This document shows, in pieces, positions 3,881 to 27,854 of a DNA stretch of 38,087 nucleotides. The notes below the pieces were generated by a model, which saw nothing but the letters and a program-made list of their open reading frames with translations, did not search any database and was not told the DNA's origin. The translations under genes and the position numbers were made by a program. This DNA is from Nitrospirota bacterium (GTDB lineage: Bacteria; Nitrospirota; Thermodesulfovibrionia; Thermodesulfovibrionales; JdFR-88): positions 1-38,087 of the forward strand of contig JAJYIR010000022.1 in the NCBI GenBank assembly GCA_021789935.1, given 5' to 3'. Positions within the stretch are counted from its first letter, which is position 1; every line of letters begins with the position of its first letter.

Positions 3881-3909
3881 TATGCCTGACGCTTTCATGC
3901 AGACACTTA

Positions 3910-3926
3910 ATCAACAAGCGTGCCAG
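3910..3926 (-). promoter_or_regulatory. sigma-54-type promoter of fliK-flgD-flgE
   Basis: The minus strand reads CTGGCACGCTTGTTGAT. This matches the sigma-54 consensus YTGGCACG-N4-TTGCW at all fixed bases except A for C in the -12 element. The predicted transcription start is near 3899, giving a 19-nt leader to the fliK ATG at 3880. It sits in a non-coding gap directly after a terminator, where a promoter is expected. Confidence 0.75.
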
Positions 3927-4043: not shown

Positions 4044-4520
4044 TTACCGGATAGGAATTTTTTTCCCAAGCGAAAGTATCCTGCCTGAGATGGCGGAAGC
4101 CTTCGCCGGGGACATGGCTGCCATGACGGCGGCGGCCTTTCTCGGGTTCATCATAAGAATTACCCTGACGGCTTCGGCCTCATCAAGCCCGGAGAGAGTC
4201 TGGGCGGTATTTTCGGGCGGCATGGTTTCATAGACCTTGATGAGCTTGGCCGCCGCCTTGCCGGAAAGTGAATTAAGCTCCTTGATGGCGGCCTGCACCT
4301 GGACCAGCAGGGCCTGGTATTTGGATATTCTTGCGTCCACGTCCTTCTTCAGTGCTTCGAGCCTGTCGCTTGAAACCTTCAGCGCCTCCTGCTTGTCCTG
4401 AAACGTTTTTTCGTTGGCCGGCGGGATGGAGATCACGTATTTTTGCGGGGCAGCGCGGCACAAAAAGACCAGCGGAGAAGAAAATATAAAAAAGGCGGTT
4501 AGTGCGAACAGCTTTTTCAT
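4044..4520 (-). CDS. MotE-like exported protein of flagellar cluster
   Basis: The 158-residue product starts with a hydrophobic signal or anchor (residues 3-20, LFALTAFFIFSSPLVFL then CRAAP). A coiled-coil-prone stretch follows (about 40-90). The C-terminal region (about 95-150, ETMPPENTAQTLSGLDEAEAVRVILMMNPRKAAAVMAAM) resembles the MgtE-N/FliG-N-like helical repeat of MotE proteins. MotE is described as a periplasmic chaperone for a motor protein in rhizobia, and similar genes often follow fliJ elsewhere. The ATG overlaps the fliJ stop (ATGA), implying coupled translation. It is the last gene of the operon. The precise role here is inference. Confidence 0.7.
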   Translation of the reverse strand: MKKLFALTAFFIFSSPLVFLCRAAPQKYVISIPPANEKTFQDKQEALKVSSDRLEALKKDVDARISKYQALLVQVQAAIKELNSLSGKAAAKLIKVYETMPPENTAQTLSGLDEAEAVRVILMMNPRKAAAVMAAMSPAKASAISGRILSLGKKIPIR

Positions 4521-10815: not shown

Positions 10816-10845
10816 AAAAAAATTTTCCCTAGCAGGAAAAATTTT
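10816..10845 (-). terminator. possible AT-rich terminator at end of flrC
   Basis: On the minus strand AAAATTTTTCC and GGAAAATTTT can pair across a short loop, with the second arm running into seven T. The hairpin overlaps the flrC stop codon. Stem stability is low because it is AT-rich with one bulge. Its position before the flgB promoter supports a role. Confidence 0.4.
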
Positions 10846-12145
10846 CCCCGTATTCCTTAAGTTTGTTCCGGATGGTCCTTACGCTGACACCCAAAATCCT
10901 GGCCGCCATGGTCCTGTTGCCGTCGACACCTTTAAGTGTGTCCATTATGAGCTGTTTTTCCATGTCCCTTATTTTCCCGGCCGGGGCATCATCCGGATGG
11001 CATTTTGCCTGCCCAAACATGAAATCCGACTCCTCTATCAGCGGGCCTTGCGCCAGAAAAACGGCCCTGTGTATTACGTTTTGCAGCTCCCTTATGTTGC
11101 CGCGCCACTTTTTCGCCTTCAAAACGGCCATGGCTGCGCCATCTATACCTTCTATCCGCTTGCCGGCAAGCTGCGACAACGTTTTTATGAAATGGTTTGA
11201 AAGCGCCTCGATGTCCTCCGGGCGGTCCCGAAGGGCCGGCACGTTTACGGGAAAGACATTCAGCCTGTAGTAAAGGTCCTCCCTGAACCTGCCGCCCTCG
11301 CATTCCTTCCAGAGGTCCCTGTTTGTAGTGGCTATTACCCTGACGTCCACGGGGACCGGGGATTTTCCGCCGACCCTGTCTATCTCCTTCTCCTGCAAGG
11401 CCCTCAGGAGCTTTGCCTGAAGAAGAAGCGGCATTTCCCCTATTTCATCCAGAAGGATGGTGCCGCCGTGGGCAAGCTCGAATTTCCCTTTTTTCCTGTC
11501 AACCGCGCCTGTAAACGCACCCTTTTCATGCCCGAAAAGCTCCGATTCCAGCAGGTTGTCCGGAATGGCCGCGCAGTTTACCGCAACGAATGTCTTGTCC
11601 GCCCTCCTGCTGGACTTATGTATGTGCCTTGCCAGAAGCTCCTTGCCTGTGCCGGACTCTCCCTCAATGAGCACCGTTATGTCAGAGGCCGCCAGCTTTC
11701 CGGCCATCTCCACAATCTTTTTCATGCCCGCGTTGGCCGTTATCAGCTCAGAGGCCCCGCTTCCGCCGAAGGACCCGCAGGACCTGATTATGGACTCTAC
11801 GGCCTTTTGAAGCCTGTCAAAAGGAAACGGCTTCATAAGGAAGTCTGTCGCACCCTCTTTCATCATCTCAACCGCGGCCTCCACCGTGCCAAAGCCGGTT
11901 ATTACCAGCACAGGCAGGGGGCCGCTCCCGCGCCTTACCTCCTTAAGCAGGGCGAGGCCGTCCATGCGAGGCATCCTCATGTCCGTAACCATTAGAGAGA
12001 ATTCAACTCCCGGCTGGCGGAGTTTGTCCAATGCCTCCTGGCCATTTTCAGAAAGGACTACTTCATAGCCCATTCTCCCAATGGATTCCTTCAGGGCAAG
12101 CCTCATCTGAGGATCATCATCTACAACCAAAACCGGCTTAGACAT
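10829..12145 (-). CDS. FlrC/FleR-like sigma-54 response regulator
   Basis: This is an NtrC-family activator. The receiver domain (1-115) has Asp55 as the phosphoacceptor and Lys105. The AAA+ domain has Walker A GESGTGKE (about 162-169) and the sigma-54-contacting GAFTGA loop (209-214). A Fis-type helix-turn-helix ([19 protein letters not shown]) ends the protein. It lies directly upstream of the flgB sigma-54 promoter and follows a soluble kinase, the usual flrBC/fleSR arrangement, so it probably activates the structural operons. I use the ATG at 12145 ([11 protein letters not shown], 438 aa); an in-frame ATG at 12175, adjoining the kinase stop, is also possible. Confidence 0.9.
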
Positions 12146-12176
12146 CTGGGCGCAATCCAAGAAATTTCCCTCCATG

Positions 12177-13337
12177 TTATTCAGAAGAAACCGTTTTACC
12201 GGTGAAATACATGCTGAATGTGCTACCCTTGCCCGGGTCGCTCGACACGCGGATGTACCCCCCATGGGCCTGCATGATTTTGGATGCGATGGCCAGTCCA
12301 AGGCCGGACCCTTTTTCCTTTGTGCTGAAAAAGGGATCGAATATCTTCTCTATGTTTTCGGGCTCTATCCCGGGGCCTTCGTCTTTTATGTCGATGACGG
12401 CGCACCCGCCATCGCCGCGCAGGCAGACCTCTATGCCCCCCCCGCCGGGCATGGCCTGGACGGCGTTAATCGCCAGGTTCATTATGGTCTGTTTAAGAAG
12501 CTCTCCGTCGCCCCGGACAACCCAATCTCCGCTGTAATTTTTTTGTGCCTTTACACCGCGGGACTCCATGAAAGGGGAAAGAAGCCACAGGACATCATCG
12601 GAAAGCTGTCCCAGTTCCACCTGCGCCATGACAGGCTTTTGCGGCCTCGCGAAAAAAAGCATGTTAGTAAGGATGTTGTTCAGGCTGTGGATACCCGCCG
12701 ATATTCCCCCCGCCAGTTTTTTTTGCTCCTTGTCCTGCAGGTCGCGCTCAAGCATTGAAGCAAAAAGCTCTATGCTGCAGAGGGGGTTTCTGACCTCATG
12801 CACTATCTTTGCGGCCATCTCGCCAAGGGATATGAGCCTTTTGTTGCGCTCGTGAAGGGCTTCCATCCGCCTCATTGCGGTTACGTCCTTTATCTGTATG
12901 ACTCTGCCCCTCGAAGCCCCGTTGGAATCCACGACAGGGGAATCGGAAACGATGACGTTGTATTTGGCCGGCCCCACTTTAAGGGCCGGCCCGGAGCCGT
13001 TTTCACAGATGCACATAGGCAGTTCGGAATAATCCCGGCCTGTCACGGCTTCCTCGGCGAGCCCCAGAAGACCGGCCGCGGACTTGTTTATCATGGTTAT
13101 TTTTTCCTTATGGTCAAGGACGATTATCGCCTCTTCCATGCTGCACAAAACGGCGTCAAGGTAGTCCTTGTTCTTTTCCGCCTCCCTTAGCGCATCTATA
13201 AGCCTGGCGTTTTTATCCTGCAGCTCCTCCGTAAGGGTCTCGATCCTTTTCTGAAGCGTCGTGTAGCAGGCTTCCAGGCTTCTGGATGCCTTCGTAAAAC
13301 TGTCAAAAGCCGTATTAAGGAGAGTTACATCAGCCAA
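12177..13337 (-). CDS. FlrB/FleS-like sensor histidine kinase
   Basis: The 386-residue cytoplasmic kinase has no membrane helix. A coiled coil (about 20-58) is followed by a PAS domain (about 60-160), a HisKA domain with His180 (GEMAAKIVHEVRNPL) and an HATPase domain (NAVQAMPGGG, DEGPGIEPENI, GSGLGLAI). The absence of transmembrane segments and the adjacent FlrC-like gene match FlrB/FleS, whose input is thought to be assembly of the early flagellar structure. Translation starts at a TTG with GGGGG about 9 nt upstream; no in-frame ATG is nearby. It is the middle gene of the TPR-kinase-regulator operon. Confidence 0.9.
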   Translation of the reverse strand: MADVTLLNTAFDSFTKASRSLEACYTTLQKRIETLTEELQDKNARLIDALREAEKNKDYLDAVLCSMEEAIIVLDHKEKITMINKSAAGLLGLAEEAVTGRDYSELPMCICENGSGPALKVGPAKYNVIVSDSPVVDSNGASRGRVIQIKDVTAMRRMEALHERNKRLISLGEMAAKIVHEVRNPLCSIELFASMLERDLQDKEQKKLAGGISAGIHSLNNILTNMLFFARPQKPVMAQVELGQLSDDVLWLLSPFMESRGVKAQKNYSGDWVVRGDGELLKQTIMNLAINAVQAMPGGGGIEVCLRGDGGCAVIDIKDEGPGIEPENIEKIFDPFFSTKEKGSGLGLAIASKIMQAHGGYIRVSSDPGKGSTFSMYFTGKTVSSE

Positions 13338-13353: not shown

Positions 13354-15162
13354 TTACCTTTCCTTTAAAACTTCCGTCTCCAACTGGCGGGCGGCCGCAT
13401 ACCGGCCCATCAGCCCGCCGTCACTCTGCAGACTGGCCAGGGCCGTTTCCGGGTCTTGCTCCAGGGACTGCATCCTGTAGAGGGTCCACTTAACATCCGG
13501 GGCGGTCAGGCCCAAATGCCCCGGGGCAGATGCCGCTCCGGAATATGCCTGCTTGTATAGTTCAAGCGCCTGCACCTTTAACCCCCTGGCAAATGCCGAA
13601 TCGGCCAGTGACATATAAAGCAAGGCAGGCACCTCCATGTCCTTGATGCGTTTTTCAATGGGACCAAACGGCTGATGGCCCCTGACATGCGGGATTATTC
13701 TTGCCAGCAGCAAGAGGTCTTCCTGCGTAAGCAACCTGACAGACAGGAGGACCTTTTGCGCACCGGCGTAGTTTTGAAGAAGGAAAAAGGCGCCTGCCTT
13801 CAGCCGGAGAGTGGGATCGTCATGCCCGGCCAGTTTTGCAAGCCTCAATAATTTCCTGATATCAGTAGAGTTGCCCGTTACGACATAATGGCCTATGAGC
13901 TTGCGGGCGGCCTGCATCTTAAGCGCAGGTGATCCGTTCCTGACAATCCATTCATAAAGACTCACCGCCTGGCCGATATCAGGTGCCTCCAGTTGCAGGG
14001 CAGCCTTGAATATAAAGGCCGCCCTTGCAGGCTGCATCAGGCTTTCGTCAGCCAGATTCCATAAAGCCGGAAACTCGGCGGGGTCACTTCCCATCGTGTG
14101 TTCCATGATTTCCTGCAGCTCATCGGCGGCCTGCAAGGCGTAATTCTTTTTCATAAGCAGGCCCTTCAAAATGGTGGCCGCTTCCATAGGTTTGCCTTTT
14201 TTACCCAGTGCAGAGGCCAAAAGCAGGAGGCCGTCATCCCGGGTTTTACCATGGAACAGGTTCTGGACCACCTGATTTAAAATCCCGATAGCTTCATCGG
14301 TCCTGCCCAGTTCAAGATCGCATTGCGCAAGACTGACAAGCGCCTTATACCGGAGTTCGGACTGAGGAGAACCGGAGGCGTCCCGGAACAGGAGGGCCGC
14401 GTCAGACAAACGCCTCTCCTGCACCGCTATGATACCAAGCGAAAAAAAGGCCCTGTGAGAAAACTCACCTTTCTTGATGTACCCGAGGCAGGCCTTGGCC
14501 TCATCAAATTTTCCCAAAAGCCTGCACGCCTCACCCATACTGTATCTGGCAAGAGGCGAGGTGGAAAAGTTCGAAGGACCGCGGGCAGCCAGGGAATTAA
14601 ACAGGTTGTAGGCCTCCTGGGCTTTCCCCGTGGCAAAAAGCGCCTCCGCCTTGCCGTACATCGACTCCTCGCTGTTTCCAGCCTTTTCATAGTTGGCGAG
14701 GGCCTCTTTGTAATGGACAGTCCTGAAAAGCGCGTTTGCCAGCCCAAGATGGGCCCGCTCGGAAAATTCAGATTTAGGGAACGTGTTTATAAAAATCCTG
14801 AAAACGGAAGCGGCCTCCTGGTAAAAACCGAGGTCCTCATAAACCTCTGCCCTTTCAAGAAGTGAAAGCTCTTTTTTCCTGCCCGAGGGGAAATAGATAT
14901 ACGCCAGCCTGTAGGGCCCCAAAGAATCATAAAACCTTTTGGCCCGTCTCAGCGCCTGGGCGTACACATAATTGTAATCCGCGAACTCACTCATCGTTGG
15001 TTTGTATCGCTTAAGCGCCTCGATGGCATCCTGCGGCCTCCCGTTATTGACTTCAGCAAGGGCCAGGTCCAGAGTTGATGGCTGAGAGGGGATGGCCCCC
15101 GAAGACTCGGGGGCCATAATGAAAGCACCAAGAAAAAAGAATGCCAGAAATAGTTTTACCAC
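13354..15162 (-). CDS. exported TPR-repeat protein in the flrBC operon
   Basis: The 602-residue product has an N-terminal hydrophobic signal (residues 3-16, KLFLAFFFLGAFIM) followed by a probable cleavage region (APESSGA). The rest is helical TPR-type repeats, clear at about residues 30-300 (for example AHLGLANALFRTVHYKEALANYEKAG). It is therefore predicted to be periplasmic or membrane-attached and to bind proteins. I do not recognise a named family. It is the first gene of an operon with the FlrB-like kinase (16-nt gap), under a consensus sigma-54 promoter, so a role in sensing or assembling the flagellar base is a fair inference. The start is a GTG without a ribosome site, one base after the predicted transcription start. 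Confidence 0.75.
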   Translation of the reverse strand: MVKLFLAFFFLGAFIMAPESSGAIPSQPSTLDLALAEVNNGRPQDAIEALKRYKPTMSEFADYNYVYAQALRRAKRFYDSLGPYRLAYIYFPSGRKKELSLLERAEVYEDLGFYQEAASVFRIFINTFPKSEFSERAHLGLANALFRTVHYKEALANYEKAGNSEESMYGKAEALFATGKAQEAYNLFNSLAARGPSNFSTSPLARYSMGEACRLLGKFDEAKACLGYIKKGEFSHRAFFSLGIIAVQERRLSDAALLFRDASGSPQSELRYKALVSLAQCDLELGRTDEAIGILNQVVQNLFHGKTRDDGLLLLASALGKKGKPMEAATILKGLLMKKNYALQAADELQEIMEHTMGSDPAEFPALWNLADESLMQPARAAFIFKAALQLEAPDIGQAVSLYEWIVRNGSPALKMQAARKLIGHYVVTGNSTDIRKLLRLAKLAGHDDPTLRLKAGAFFLLQNYAGAQKVLLSVRLLTQEDLLLLARIIPHVRGHQPFGPIEKRIKDMEVPALLYMSLADSAFARGLKVQALELYKQAYSGAASAPGHLGLTAPDVKWTLYRMQSLEQDPETALASLQSDGGLMGRYAAARQLETEVLKER

Positions 15163-15173
15163 AAACGGGAATA

Positions 15174-15190
15174 AGCAACTAACGTGCCAA
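15174..15190 (-). promoter_or_regulatory. consensus sigma-54 promoter of TPR-flrB-flrC
   Basis: The minus strand reads TTGGCACGTTAGTTGCT, a full match to YTGGCACG-N4-TTGCW. With C of the GC pair at -12 (15175), transcription should begin near 15163, immediately before the GTG start at 15162. The leader would then be absent or nearly so. Confidence 0.88.
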
Positions 15191-15240: not shown

Positions 15241-15270
15241 CGTCAGGAAACTGACGCCAGGCGGCGTCAG
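15241..15270 (-). promoter_or_regulatory. mutually exclusive hairpins (attenuator-like)
   Basis: The minus strand reads CTGACGCC-GCCT-GGCGTCAG, a perfect 8-bp hairpin (15251-15270). Its 3' arm can instead pair with the next segment as CGTCAG-TTTC-CTGACG, followed by TTTTT. The two structures cannot form together; the second looks like a terminator. It lies 16 nt beyond the FlrA-like stop and about 50 nt before the sigma-54 promoter. It may end the upstream transcript, or gate read-through. Confidence 0.6.
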
Positions 15271-15285
15271 GAGATGGAACGGCCT

Positions 15286-16731
15286 CTATATATTCATTTT
15301 TTTCATTTTTTCCACGAGGGTGGTCCTGTTCAGGCCAAGGAGTTTCGCGGCCTTGCTCTTTACGCCGCCCGTTTTTCCAAGGGCCTGGAGAATAAGATTT
15401 CTTTCCATTTGCTCCACTGCCTTTGTCAGGTCCATTCCAGGATCGGGAAGGCCCTGTGCCGGGACTGCCTGGCTTTCTTCCTCCCGGGCACCGGGCCCAT
15501 CGTGGTCTGCTTCTTTAACGGCGGACAGCGGCAAGGACCGGGAGACTGTGCCAGGCGCTTTTACCAGCTGGAATTTCGCCGGGAGGTCAGCGGCATCTAT
15601 AGTGTCCTTGGAAACAAGAATAGTAAGTCTTTCAAGCAGATTTTCAAGCTCCCTTACATTTCCCGGCCAGTGGTATCTAAGCAGGCATTCCATCGCCCCT
15701 GGTGAGACCTCCACCGGATCTCTTTTTTTCTTTTTTACCAGTTCCTTTTTGAAGAAATCCACAAGCAGCGGGATATCTTCCACCCGCTCCCTCAGAGGGG
15801 GCAGAAGGATGGGAATGACATTAAGCCTGTAGTACAGGTCTTCCCTGAACTTCCCGTCCTCTATCGCTTTTTCAAGGTCCTTGTTTGTTGCGGTGACTAT
15901 CCTTACATCTACCTTGATGGTCTTGCTGCCGCCCACCCTTTCAAATTCCTTGCCCTGTATCACCCGCAGGACCTTGCCTTGAAGGGACATGTCCAGCTCG
16001 CCTATCTCATCCAGGAAAAGAGTGCCGCCCGCCGCCAATTCGAAGCGGCCTATCCTTGTGTTAAGCGCACCTGTGAAGGCACCCTTCTCGTGTCCGAAAA
16101 GCTCCGACTCAAGCAGGTCCTTGGGTATGGCCGCGCAGTTAAGCGGAATAAACGGCTGCTGGGCCCGGGAACTGTTGAAATGAATGGTCTTGGCTATGAG
16201 CTCCTTGCCTGTCCCGGATTCCCCGGTGATAAGGATGGTGCTGTCTATATCGAATATCTTCTCGATCATCTCATAGACCTGCTGCATCCGGGGGGAATCT
16301 CCTATGAGCCCGTCAAATTTGTATTTTTTTCTCAAATGCCTCTTGAGCATCCGGTTTTCATGCTGGAGCTCTGAAACCCCGATACCCCTTTCCACAACCA
16401 TCATGAGCTCGTCAAGGACAAACGGTTTGGTTATGTAATCAAACGCGCCAAGCTTCATGGCCTCCACCGCCGTCTGGACGGTTGCAAACGCCGTCATCAC
16501 TATGCACGGGAAGGATATCTTCAGTTCGGCCATTTTTTTAAGCAGATCGATGCCACCCATATCGGGCATCATGAGGTCCATCAGAAGCAGATCAAATTTT
16601 CCGCTTTTAAGGGCGTCAAGGGCCTGGAAGCCATCAGACACTGTGCTGACTTTGAACCCCTTGCCACGGAAAAAAATGTCGAGGGAGTCTCTTATAAAAT
16701 CGTCATCGTCAACGATAAGAAGGTGTTTCAT
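15286..16731 (-). CDS. FlrA/FleQ-like sigma-54 response regulator
   Basis: The 481-residue activator has a receiver domain with acidic pocket and Asp52 intact, an AAA+ domain with Walker A (GESGTGKE, 170-177) and GAFTGA (217-222), and a C-terminal helix-turn-helix with LGLNRTTLVEKMKK. The RTTLVEKM sequence is characteristic of FleQ/FlrA flagellar master regulators. Unlike classical FleQ/FlrA, whose receiver is degenerate, this one looks phosphorylatable. It sits just upstream of the sigma-54 promoter of TPR-flrB-flrC and after a hybrid kinase, a possible partner. There is no ribosome site; a -10 element ends 8 nt before the ATG. Confidence 0.88.
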   Translation of the reverse strand: MKHLLIVDDDDFIRDSLDIFFRGKGFKVSTVSDGFQALDALKSGKFDLLLMDLMMPDMGGIDLLKKMAELKISFPCIVMTAFATVQTAVEAMKLGAFDYITKPFVLDELMMVVERGIGVSELQHENRMLKRHLRKKYKFDGLIGDSPRMQQVYEMIEKIFDIDSTILITGESGTGKELIAKTIHFNSSRAQQPFIPLNCAAIPKDLLESELFGHEKGAFTGALNTRIGRFELAAGGTLFLDEIGELDMSLQGKVLRVIQGKEFERVGGSKTIKVDVRIVTATNKDLEKAIEDGKFREDLYYRLNVIPILLPPLRERVEDIPLLVDFFKKELVKKKKRDPVEVSPGAMECLLRYHWPGNVRELENLLERLTILVSKDTIDAADLPAKFQLVKAPGTVSRSLPLSAVKEADHDGPGAREEESQAVPAQGLPDPGMDLTKAVEQMERNLILQALGKTGGVKSKAAKLLGLNRTTLVEKMKKMNI

Positions 16732-16739
16732 TCAATGAA

Positions 16740-16769
16740 ATACTAAATCACGGGCAGGCTAAATGTCAA
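16740..16769 (-). promoter_or_regulatory. sigma-70-type promoter of the FlrA-like gene
   Basis: On the minus strand, TTGACA (16764-16769) is followed after 18 nt by TAGTAT (16740-16745). The -35 is perfect and the -10 matches four of six bases. The -10 ends 8 nt before the ATG at 16731, so the mRNA would be leaderless or nearly so. A 5-bp inverted repeat, GTCAA-N4-TTGAC, overlaps the -35 (16765-16778) and could be an operator. Confidence 0.55.
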
Positions 16770-16802
16770 TATTTTGACTATTACCGGAACAGTTTTTGTT
16801 TA

Positions 16803-26495: not shown

Positions 26496-27854
26496 ATGCA
26501 GTGTATCCTCATAGTCGAGGACAGAGAATCCATGGCGGGCATGCTCAAGGCCACTCTGGAAGGAGAAGGCTTCAAGGCGGTTACCGCATCGGATTCATCC
26601 TCCGCGCTTAAAAAGCTCAGGGAAGAGCGAATTGACCTTGTCCTCACTGACCTCAAACTGCCCGGGAAAAGCGGGATTGAGGTCCTCAGGGCCTCAAGAG
26701 AGGGCGACGCCTTAAGGCCCGTCATCGTAATGACCGCGTACGGATCGATCGAGGGGGCGGTGCAGGCCATGCGGATCGGAGCCTACGATTTCATAACAAA
26801 GCCCTTCGACACGGAACATCTGGTTCTGCTTATTAAAAGGGCACTGGAAAACCAGCGCATGGTGACCGAGAACATCCTTTTAAAAGAAGAACTTGGCCAG
26901 AAATCCATGCCGGTCATAATCGGGAAAAGCCCTTTGATCGAGGAGGTGGCCCAGAGGCTCAGACGTGTTGCCCCGGTTAAAAGCACCGTCTTGCTCCTGG
27001 GGGAATCCGGCACCGGCAAGGAGCTTTTCGCCCGAGCCATTCACAGCCTTTCTCCCAGAAGGGACTATCCTTTTGTGGCAATAAACTGCGCGGCCATTCC
27101 GGAGAATCTTCTGGAGTCAGAGCTGTTCGGGTATGAAAAAGGGGCCTACACCGGTGCGGACAGGACAAAACCCGGCAAACTTGAACTGGCACATTTGGGG
27201 ACAGTCTTTCTGGACGAGGTGGGGGAGCTTGATCTTTCCCTGCAGGCCAAGCTGCTAAGGGTTTTGCAGGAAGGGGAAATAGAGCGTGTCGGAGGGGTGG
27301 GACCTCTGAAAATAGACGTTCGTGTGGTGGCCGCAAGCAACAAAAACATAGAAAAGGAAGTGCAGGAGAAAAAATTCAGAGAGGACCTCTTCTACCGGCT
27401 GAATGTCTTCCCGATCGACATCCCCCCGTTAAGAAAACGGCGCGAGGACATACCGCTTCTGGCCAGGTATTTCGCAAAAAAATACGTATCAGAAATAAAA
27501 TCCGGAGAAAAAACCATCTCCCCGGAGGCGTTGCAGGCTCTGTCTTCCGGCTACTGGAGGGGCAACGTCAGGGAGCTTGAGAACACCATCGAACGGGCCG
27601 TCATCCTCTGCGACGGGGACACCATAAAACCGGAACATCTCTGCCTGACCTCCTGTCCGGCCGCGGCGGAGCCCTTGAATATGGACAGCCCTCTTGAGGA
27701 AATATCAAGGCAGGCCCAGAAAGCGGCTGAAACCGAGCGTATAAGACATGCACTGGCTGAGTCCAAAGGAAACAAGACCAGAGCGGCGGAGGCGCTAAAG
27801 GTGAGCTACAAGACCCTCCTTACGAAGATAAAAGAATACGGTTTGGAACAATAA
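26496..27854 (+). CDS. NtrC-family sigma-54 response regulator
   Basis: The 452-residue activator has a receiver with Asp52, an AAA+ domain with Walker A GESGTGKE (169-176) and the loop variant GAYTGA (216-221), and a Fis-type helix-turn-helix ending [24 protein letters not shown] is a known functional variant of GAFTGA. No kinase gene adjoins it, so its partner and regulon are unknown. The ATG is 8 nt after an extended -10 and lacks a ribosome site. Confidence 0.92.

Follow-up and report, generated by a model that had tools for sequence, protein, structure and literature searches.

An exported-looking TPR protein encoded ahead of flrB in Nitrospirota: a candidate flagellar motor spoke with a predicted leaderless sigma-54 start

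Why does a gene for a large, seemingly exported TPR protein stand directly ahead of the genes for the kinase FlrB and the regulator FlrC, and what does its product do? The question arises from a stretch of 38,087 nucleotides, referred to as the window, which is one whole contig of a Nitrospirota genome of 2.47 Mb. A sequence-only reading of this DNA had placed such a gene at 13354-15162 and had seen in its product a possible missing assembly or checkpoint part. The features used in the following are compiled in Table 1.

Table 1. Positions of the features discussed, in window coordinates
Feature	Position	Strand	Evidence
Candidate E-ring gene (FlgY/MotE-like), located between fliJ and fliK	4044..4520	-	MgtE_N 3.2e-5
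FlrC/FlbD-like sigma-54 response regulator	10829..12301	-	Pfam; NCBIfam best match FlbD, below cut-off
FlrB-type kinase (PAS-HisKA), no transmembrane segment	12177..13337	-	Pfam; hydropathy maximum 1.1
Gene of the 602-aa TPR protein (export-like N-terminus, TPR solenoid)	13354..15162	-	ORF, Pfam TPR, AlphaFold2
Signal-peptide-like segment, first 23 residues	15094..15162	-	Hydropathy; end point set by eye
Predicted sigma-54 promoter TGGCACGTTAGTTGCT	15174..15189	-	Exact match to TGGCACNNNNNTTGCW; conserved start spacing
GTCA-N6-TGAC palindrome, FleQ-type enhancer box	15242..15255		66 bp before -24 element
Sigma-54 activator, receiver domain and FleQ-like HTH end	15286..16731	-	Pfam; FleQ alignment
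Second GTCA-N6-TGAC palindrome, just upstream of activator gene	16765..16778		Pattern search

An ORF is present at exactly these coordinates on the minus strand and begins with GTG. The N-terminus of the product, VKLFLAFFFLGAFIMAPESSGA, is hydrophobic (19-residue Kyte-Doolittle maximum of 1.9 at residue 1), and a hydrophobic N-terminal stretch is seen across 23 aligned orthologues. Since such a stretch fits a signal peptide, the protein looks exported, as the sequence-only reading had claimed. A Pfam search gave a TPR_16 match of 2.2e-16; many repeats were assigned to the Pfam TPR families, and the AlphaFold2 model based on the 23 orthologues (pLDDT 88.7, pTM 0.67) is a helical solenoid behind the N-terminus. 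No NCBIfam model matched the protein at or above its curated cut-off, and the Pfam search gave no AMIN match. Within the order, the sequence identity of the aligned orthologues falls to 23-30%.

The stop codon of the TPR gene is followed after 16 bp by the start of the kinase gene. Hydropathy detected no transmembrane segment in the FlrB-type kinase, which looks cytosolic. The true start of FlrC probably lies inside its ORF, and downstream of this regulator follows the series flgB-flgC-fliE-fliF-fliG-fliH-fliI-fliJ, in which flgC, fliE and fliG were named by reading their ORFs. With flgB being the third gene downstream, the TPR gene lies within the distance of at most five genes from flagellar genes that is used in PMC11870540. 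Based on the short spacing and the conserved gene order, we predict that TPR gene, flrB and flrC are co-transcribed as one operon headed by the TPR gene, which is also what the sequence-only reading had assumed. A third sigma-54 response regulator with a receiver domain is encoded outside the flagellar cluster (26496-27854, plus strand), divergent from a Ppx/GppA-like gene and adjoining the gene of a GGDEF protein.

The arrangement was followed in a sample of 198 Nitrospirota genomes, of which 84 have an FlrB-type kinase called at E <= 1e-55; the remaining 114 were left out. In all 84 genomes, a TPR ORF lies directly upstream of the kinase gene. These are the window, 28 of the 29 loci of one set, G029, and further groups of 13, 6 and 35 (out of 35) genomes. 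The 29th locus (L124, from G029) ends at a contig end, and another contig end of the same genome (L015) carries the TPR gene and the kinase start. The weakest TPR profile score among the 84 loci was 3e-14 (family f21). In a control with 87 large ORFs from nine stretches, the only profile matches at E <= 1e-3 were the nine TPR genes. Given its recurrence in 84 of 84 genomes, the TPR-kinase arrangement is far above chance. The supposed tie to flrBC therefore held for flrB throughout; flrC is missing beside the pair in three genomes of family f3 (scored within 1.5 kb in G036, within several kb in G013 and G025). In G013 and G025 (loci L063-L066), flrC is found with flgBC at a place separate from the activator-TPR-kinase trio, and in all three genomes the activator gene still adjoins the pair.

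TPR profile hits are generic (the A1 profile hit 19 of 20 genomes, mostly at several places each); this is why orthologues were called only together with position. Co-occurrence with flagella was determined in an order sample of 61 genomes, consisting of the window's own genome and its relatives. A BLAST-level match to the TPR protein occurs in 27 of them, and a C-terminal FliF domain in 38 (35 strong, 3 weak with 24-30 bits). The orthologues are not situated mostly in non-flagellated genomes or away from flagellar loci, the outcome that would have refuted the sequence-only reading: all 35 strong-FliF genomes possess the gene. In 26 of these the match is at BLAST level (only partial in G056, where the contig ends); the remaining nine, from families f9 and f12, have between activator and kinase a diverged TPR ORF with an open frame of 530-592 aa and profile E-values of 1.5e-23 to 1.3e-31. 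The sole match in a FliF-negative genome (G023, locus L026; E 1.9e-6) was not counted as an orthologue: by reading it has a zinc-ribbon-like start, a strong sigma-54 site is absent, and no other window gene is found in 3.6 kb.

A further search for relatives gave 16 loci, 14 of which show the TPR gene well; ten of the 14 are titled Nitrospirae, Nitrospiraceae or Nitrospira. The same cassette is found in L070-L072, whose records are titled Deltaproteobacteria, Desulfobacterales or 'bacterium'. The phylum labels of L070 and L071 may be wrong, because their fliI is 76% identical to that of the window and thus as close as in Nitrospirae-titled records (range 68-92% among L067-L080). In the partly masked record of L080, the kinase, flrC and flgBC are largely hidden. 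Short chance-like matches in L081 and L082 were rejected as relatives, and a search of viral contigs found no relative.

How is the gene expressed? TGGCACGTTAGTTGCT is the window's only exact match to TGGCACNNNNNTTGCW; genome-wide, a slightly looser sigma-54 pattern gave 18 matches versus 3 for the reversed pattern. If one mismatch is allowed, the window contains five matches, a number reached by 4 of 100 shuffles; consequently, it is their position that supports the one-mismatch sites ahead of flgB and fliK. In the case of fliK, the sigma-54-like sequence TGGCACGCTTGTTGAT (3898-3925, minus strand; one mismatch) puts the -12 position 13 nt ahead of the ATG, and the same holds for L067. At the TPR gene, the -12 C lies 13 nt ahead of the GTG. 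Sigma-54 transcripts start 12 nt after the -12 C, which would place the transcript start at about 15163, one base ahead of the GTG. As an in-frame start codon thus sits at about the transcript start, we predict a leaderless mRNA.

This spacing is conserved. Strong sigma-54 sites precede the TPR gene in 43 of 59 distinct loci, 38 of which have an in-frame start 12-17 nt past the -12 C; the exceptions are L020, L023, L071, L072 and L136, for the last of which an alternative site gives 18. A further set has the strong site in 29 of 35 loci, with a start at 12-18 nt in 28 of the 29. Of 27 flgB loci, in contrast, 23 show a distance of 20-63 nt (the others 16, 79, 153 and 153); a Mann-Whitney comparison of the spacings, in which related rows are treated as independent, gave 4.8e-9. 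Families f9, f21 and f22 have no clear sigma-54 site before the TPR gene, and family f12 (L056-L060, L144, L145) has mostly a degenerate one of the type TGGCACATTTCTTTCA, with TTTC instead of TTGC. Leaderless-like spacing is not unique to the TPR gene: among the sigma-54 sites of the window's genome (L083-L100 of G000; 17 of 18 evaluated with the first listed in-frame start, L092 left out), 13-16 nt were also found at L085, L086 (TTG), L089, L094 and L099. By reading, the product of L099 resembles FlgF/FlgG and that of L085 resembles LpxC.

Alternatively, the mRNA may carry a leader, either because translation begins at ATG 15117 or because a longer transcript comes from another promoter. The GTG of the window speaks for this alternative, as all leaderless mRNAs of S. 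meliloti in the available text of PMC3616915 start with AUG, and so do the five of 43 loci that deviate from the spacing. However, a start at 15117 would cost the protein its hydrophobic N-terminus, the promoter fills the place where a ribosome site would be, and the spacing is kept in the two sets given above while it is wider at most flgB sites. We therefore consider a leader unlikely. A limited literature search found neither a paper that treats leaderless mRNAs, Nitrospirae and translation initiation together nor, in the parts of the papers at hand, a phylum-wide sigma-54 leaderless gene.

The promoter is accompanied by a GTCA-N6-TGAC palindrome, whose arms fit the FleQ box described in excerpts of PMC10723142 as GTCAAT and ATTGAC two bases apart; the same source reports the fleSR promoter to be FleQ- and sigma-54-dependent. 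The window contains five such palindromes versus 0.25 expected, and three of them sit inside genes. Among 45 loci, all picked for having a sigma-54 site, the box is found upstream of the promoter in 36, mostly at a distance of 55-70 bp and in ten f24 loci at 117-138 bp. Other spacers (3-11) occur in at most two of the 45 loci each, and a shuffle control that keeps base composition only gave a mean of 0.86 of 45 and a maximum of 5 in 200 rounds. Nine loci (L011, L014, L015, L018, L019, L020, L023, L146, L147) lack the box, and it was found again in 31 of 35 further loci.

The activator encoded next to this box has a full receiver domain according to Pfam and aligns with FleQ (8p53_C) over its full length, including the HTH end, with 355 bits; the NtrC-type chains 4l4u and 1ny5 reach 361-362 bits over residues 3-384, which is above the FleQ value. 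Judged from sequence, this activator is likely to regulate the TPR-flrBC operon, and the second palindrome suggests that it may regulate itself as well.

What might the protein do? A first indication comes from the gene between fliJ and fliK. Its product scores 24.8 bits against MgtE_N, 1.1 under the Pfam cut-off of 25.9, and combines a signal-like start and a long helix, both read from the sequence, with an MgtE_N-like end, which is the layout described for FlgY/MotE. Judged by sequence reading, 13 of 14 loci have a similar ORF after fliJ (Pfam was applied to that of the window only), and the remaining one, L066, ends at this point. As FlgY/MotE rings pair with spokes of the PflA/MotC/MotK type according to the available parts of PMC13023049 and PMC10954123, this E-ring-like gene is a further clue that the TPR protein is the spoke partner.

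A second indication is the fold. In a Foldseek search with the window model, eukaryotic TPR proteins took ranks 1-6, and rank 7 (E 1.4e-8) went to 9hmf_K, a chain of the periplasmic motor scaffold of C. jejuni. We take 9hmf_K to be PflA, because its 773 residues equal PflA 16-788, the construct given in the sections of PMC11870540 at hand. AMIN matches were obtained for five orthologues, above the Pfam cut-off in L077, L079 and L149 and below it in L078 and L150; PflA consists of an AMIN-like domain, a linker and then TPR (PMC11870540, in part), and MotK of AMIN plus TPR, the accessible text of PMC10954123 reporting no AMIN domain for the TPR-only MotC. The L077 model, a weak one based on a three-row alignment (pLDDT 71, pTM 0.46), shows strands at residues 33-122, low confidence at 125-177 and helices beyond. 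The modelled domain order, i.e. beta-domain, disordered linker and TPR solenoid, is the one reported for PflA, and 9hmf_K is the first PDB match of this model (E 1.7e-10, 846 columns, TM 0.24). The TM-scores are low (0.24-0.29), and VIA-align 2 listed among its top 50 for the window and L077 models other TPR proteins only and no flagellar scaffold chain, an absence that counts neither for nor against the spoke. Because of this second list, and because TPR folds are unspecific, the fold alone does not settle the identity; for lack of an AMIN match we do not class the window protein as a true PflA or MotK.

As the protein most resembles the spokes that brace the flagellar motors of other bacteria, we regard it as a probable motor part rather than a novel type of sensor. 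With a probability of roughly 0.55, we favour a periplasmic spoke of the PflA/MotC/MotK/FlcB kind, made together with FlrBC from a leaderless sigma-54 transcript under a FleQ-like activator.

The TPR gene always adjoins the kinase gene, and not the E-ring or stator genes. This raises the alternative of a checkpoint part: the exported protein would report assembly to FlrB via the MS ring, or would restrain FlrB as long as the ring is incomplete, and would thereby time the activation of rod and hook genes. The adjacency without exception favours such a role, and so do the three f3 genomes in which the pair has no adjoining flrC, the TPR gene being tied there to the kinase rather than to flrC. 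On the other hand, the activator gene also stays with the f3 pairs and other flagellar genes keep their order, so that adjacency is weak evidence for signalling. Moreover, the related kinases FlgS/FlrB, according to parts of PMC7064773, read the MS ring-rotor-export complex from the cytosol. Since the kinase appears cytosolic and has no transmembrane segment, an exported TPR protein could act on it only via the basal body, and the signal would have to cross the membrane by another protein. Topology thus opposes a direct sensor role, and the strict tie to flrB makes an indirect one conceivable. Altogether, we rate a checkpoint role as possible, though less probable than a spoke. Of the dual proposal made by the sequence-only reading, the assembly part has come close to a PflA/MotC-like spoke, whereas nothing shows the checkpoint role.

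Less probable still is another periplasmic assembly or envelope TPR protein that does not act as a spoke, e.g. a rod or ring chaperone or a factor associated with peptidoglycan: matches restricted to general TPR and AMIN families and a divergence as for a loosely constrained solenoid are compatible with it, but the AMIN-linker-TPR order and the E-ring-like partner gene suit a spoke better.

For the spoke, the following mechanism is proposed. The FleQ/FlrA-like activator encoded just upstream would switch the operon on through the GTCA-N6-TGAC box, and the TPR protein and the assembly-sensing pair FlrBC would be made from one sigma-54 promoter, the position of the first TPR codon at about the transcript start leading to leaderless translation. 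In the periplasm, the TPR protein would then form a spoke between E-ring and stators, presumably touching both the FlgY-like protein and the stators. With this assignment, the flagellar motors of Nitrospirota gain a likely scaffold component, and the position immediately ahead of flrB offers a handle for finding spokes that sequence search misses. The leaderless sigma-54 start, if true, would be an unusual expression mode kept over much of a phylum. In addition, a link between motor scaffold and FlrB assembly checkpoint becomes directly testable.

Among known systems, PflA of C. jejuni shares with the window protein the large export-like TPR solenoid, the flagellated host and a FlgY-like partner gene. 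Five Nitrospirota orthologues add an AMIN-like domain, one of them with a modelled linker; the window protein itself has no AMIN domain, and no sequence match between it and PflA was seen. According to section 8 of PMC11870540, pflA and flgY of C. jejuni are not RpoN-dependent. The pflA gene therefore lies outside the RpoN cascade, whereas the window TPR gene belongs to a predicted sigma-54 flrBC operon, which counts against the spoke reading. MotC of S. meliloti, MotK of C. sphaeroides (Cereibacter) and FlcB of B. burgdorferi were likened by description, as exported-looking TPR proteins; excerpts of PMC13023049 and PMC10954123 present all three as periplasmic and working with MotE/FlbB E-ring proteins. 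MotK-like genes lie near motA or motE (PMC10954123, in part), the Nitrospirota TPR gene lies before flrB.

With the leaderless mRNAs of other bacteria, the TPR gene shares a start codon at about the transcript start and the lack of a ribosome site. The leaderless set of C. jejuni is preceded by sigma-70 sites, as stated in the accessible text of PMC3847290; the Nitrospirota site is of the sigma-54 type and the start is often GTG.

A limited literature search found no paper dealing with this TPR gene in Nitrospirota. As a class, exported TPR proteins near flagellar genes are not new: section 10 of PMC11870540 attributes to about 52% of 1,365 flagellated species a TPR protein that is possibly flagella-related and a potential PflA/PflB homologue.

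The closest counterpart of the locus as a whole is the classical FleQ-fleSR or FlrA-flrBC unit, in which activator gene, box, sigma-54 promoter, cytosolic kinase and sigma-54 regulator follow each other in this order. The order is the same here, with the TPR gene inserted first, an activator that has a full receiver domain and a predicted leaderless start. What is new is the cassette of fixed order, activator-TPR-flrB-(flrC), together with the box and the leaderless-like spacing that it carries.
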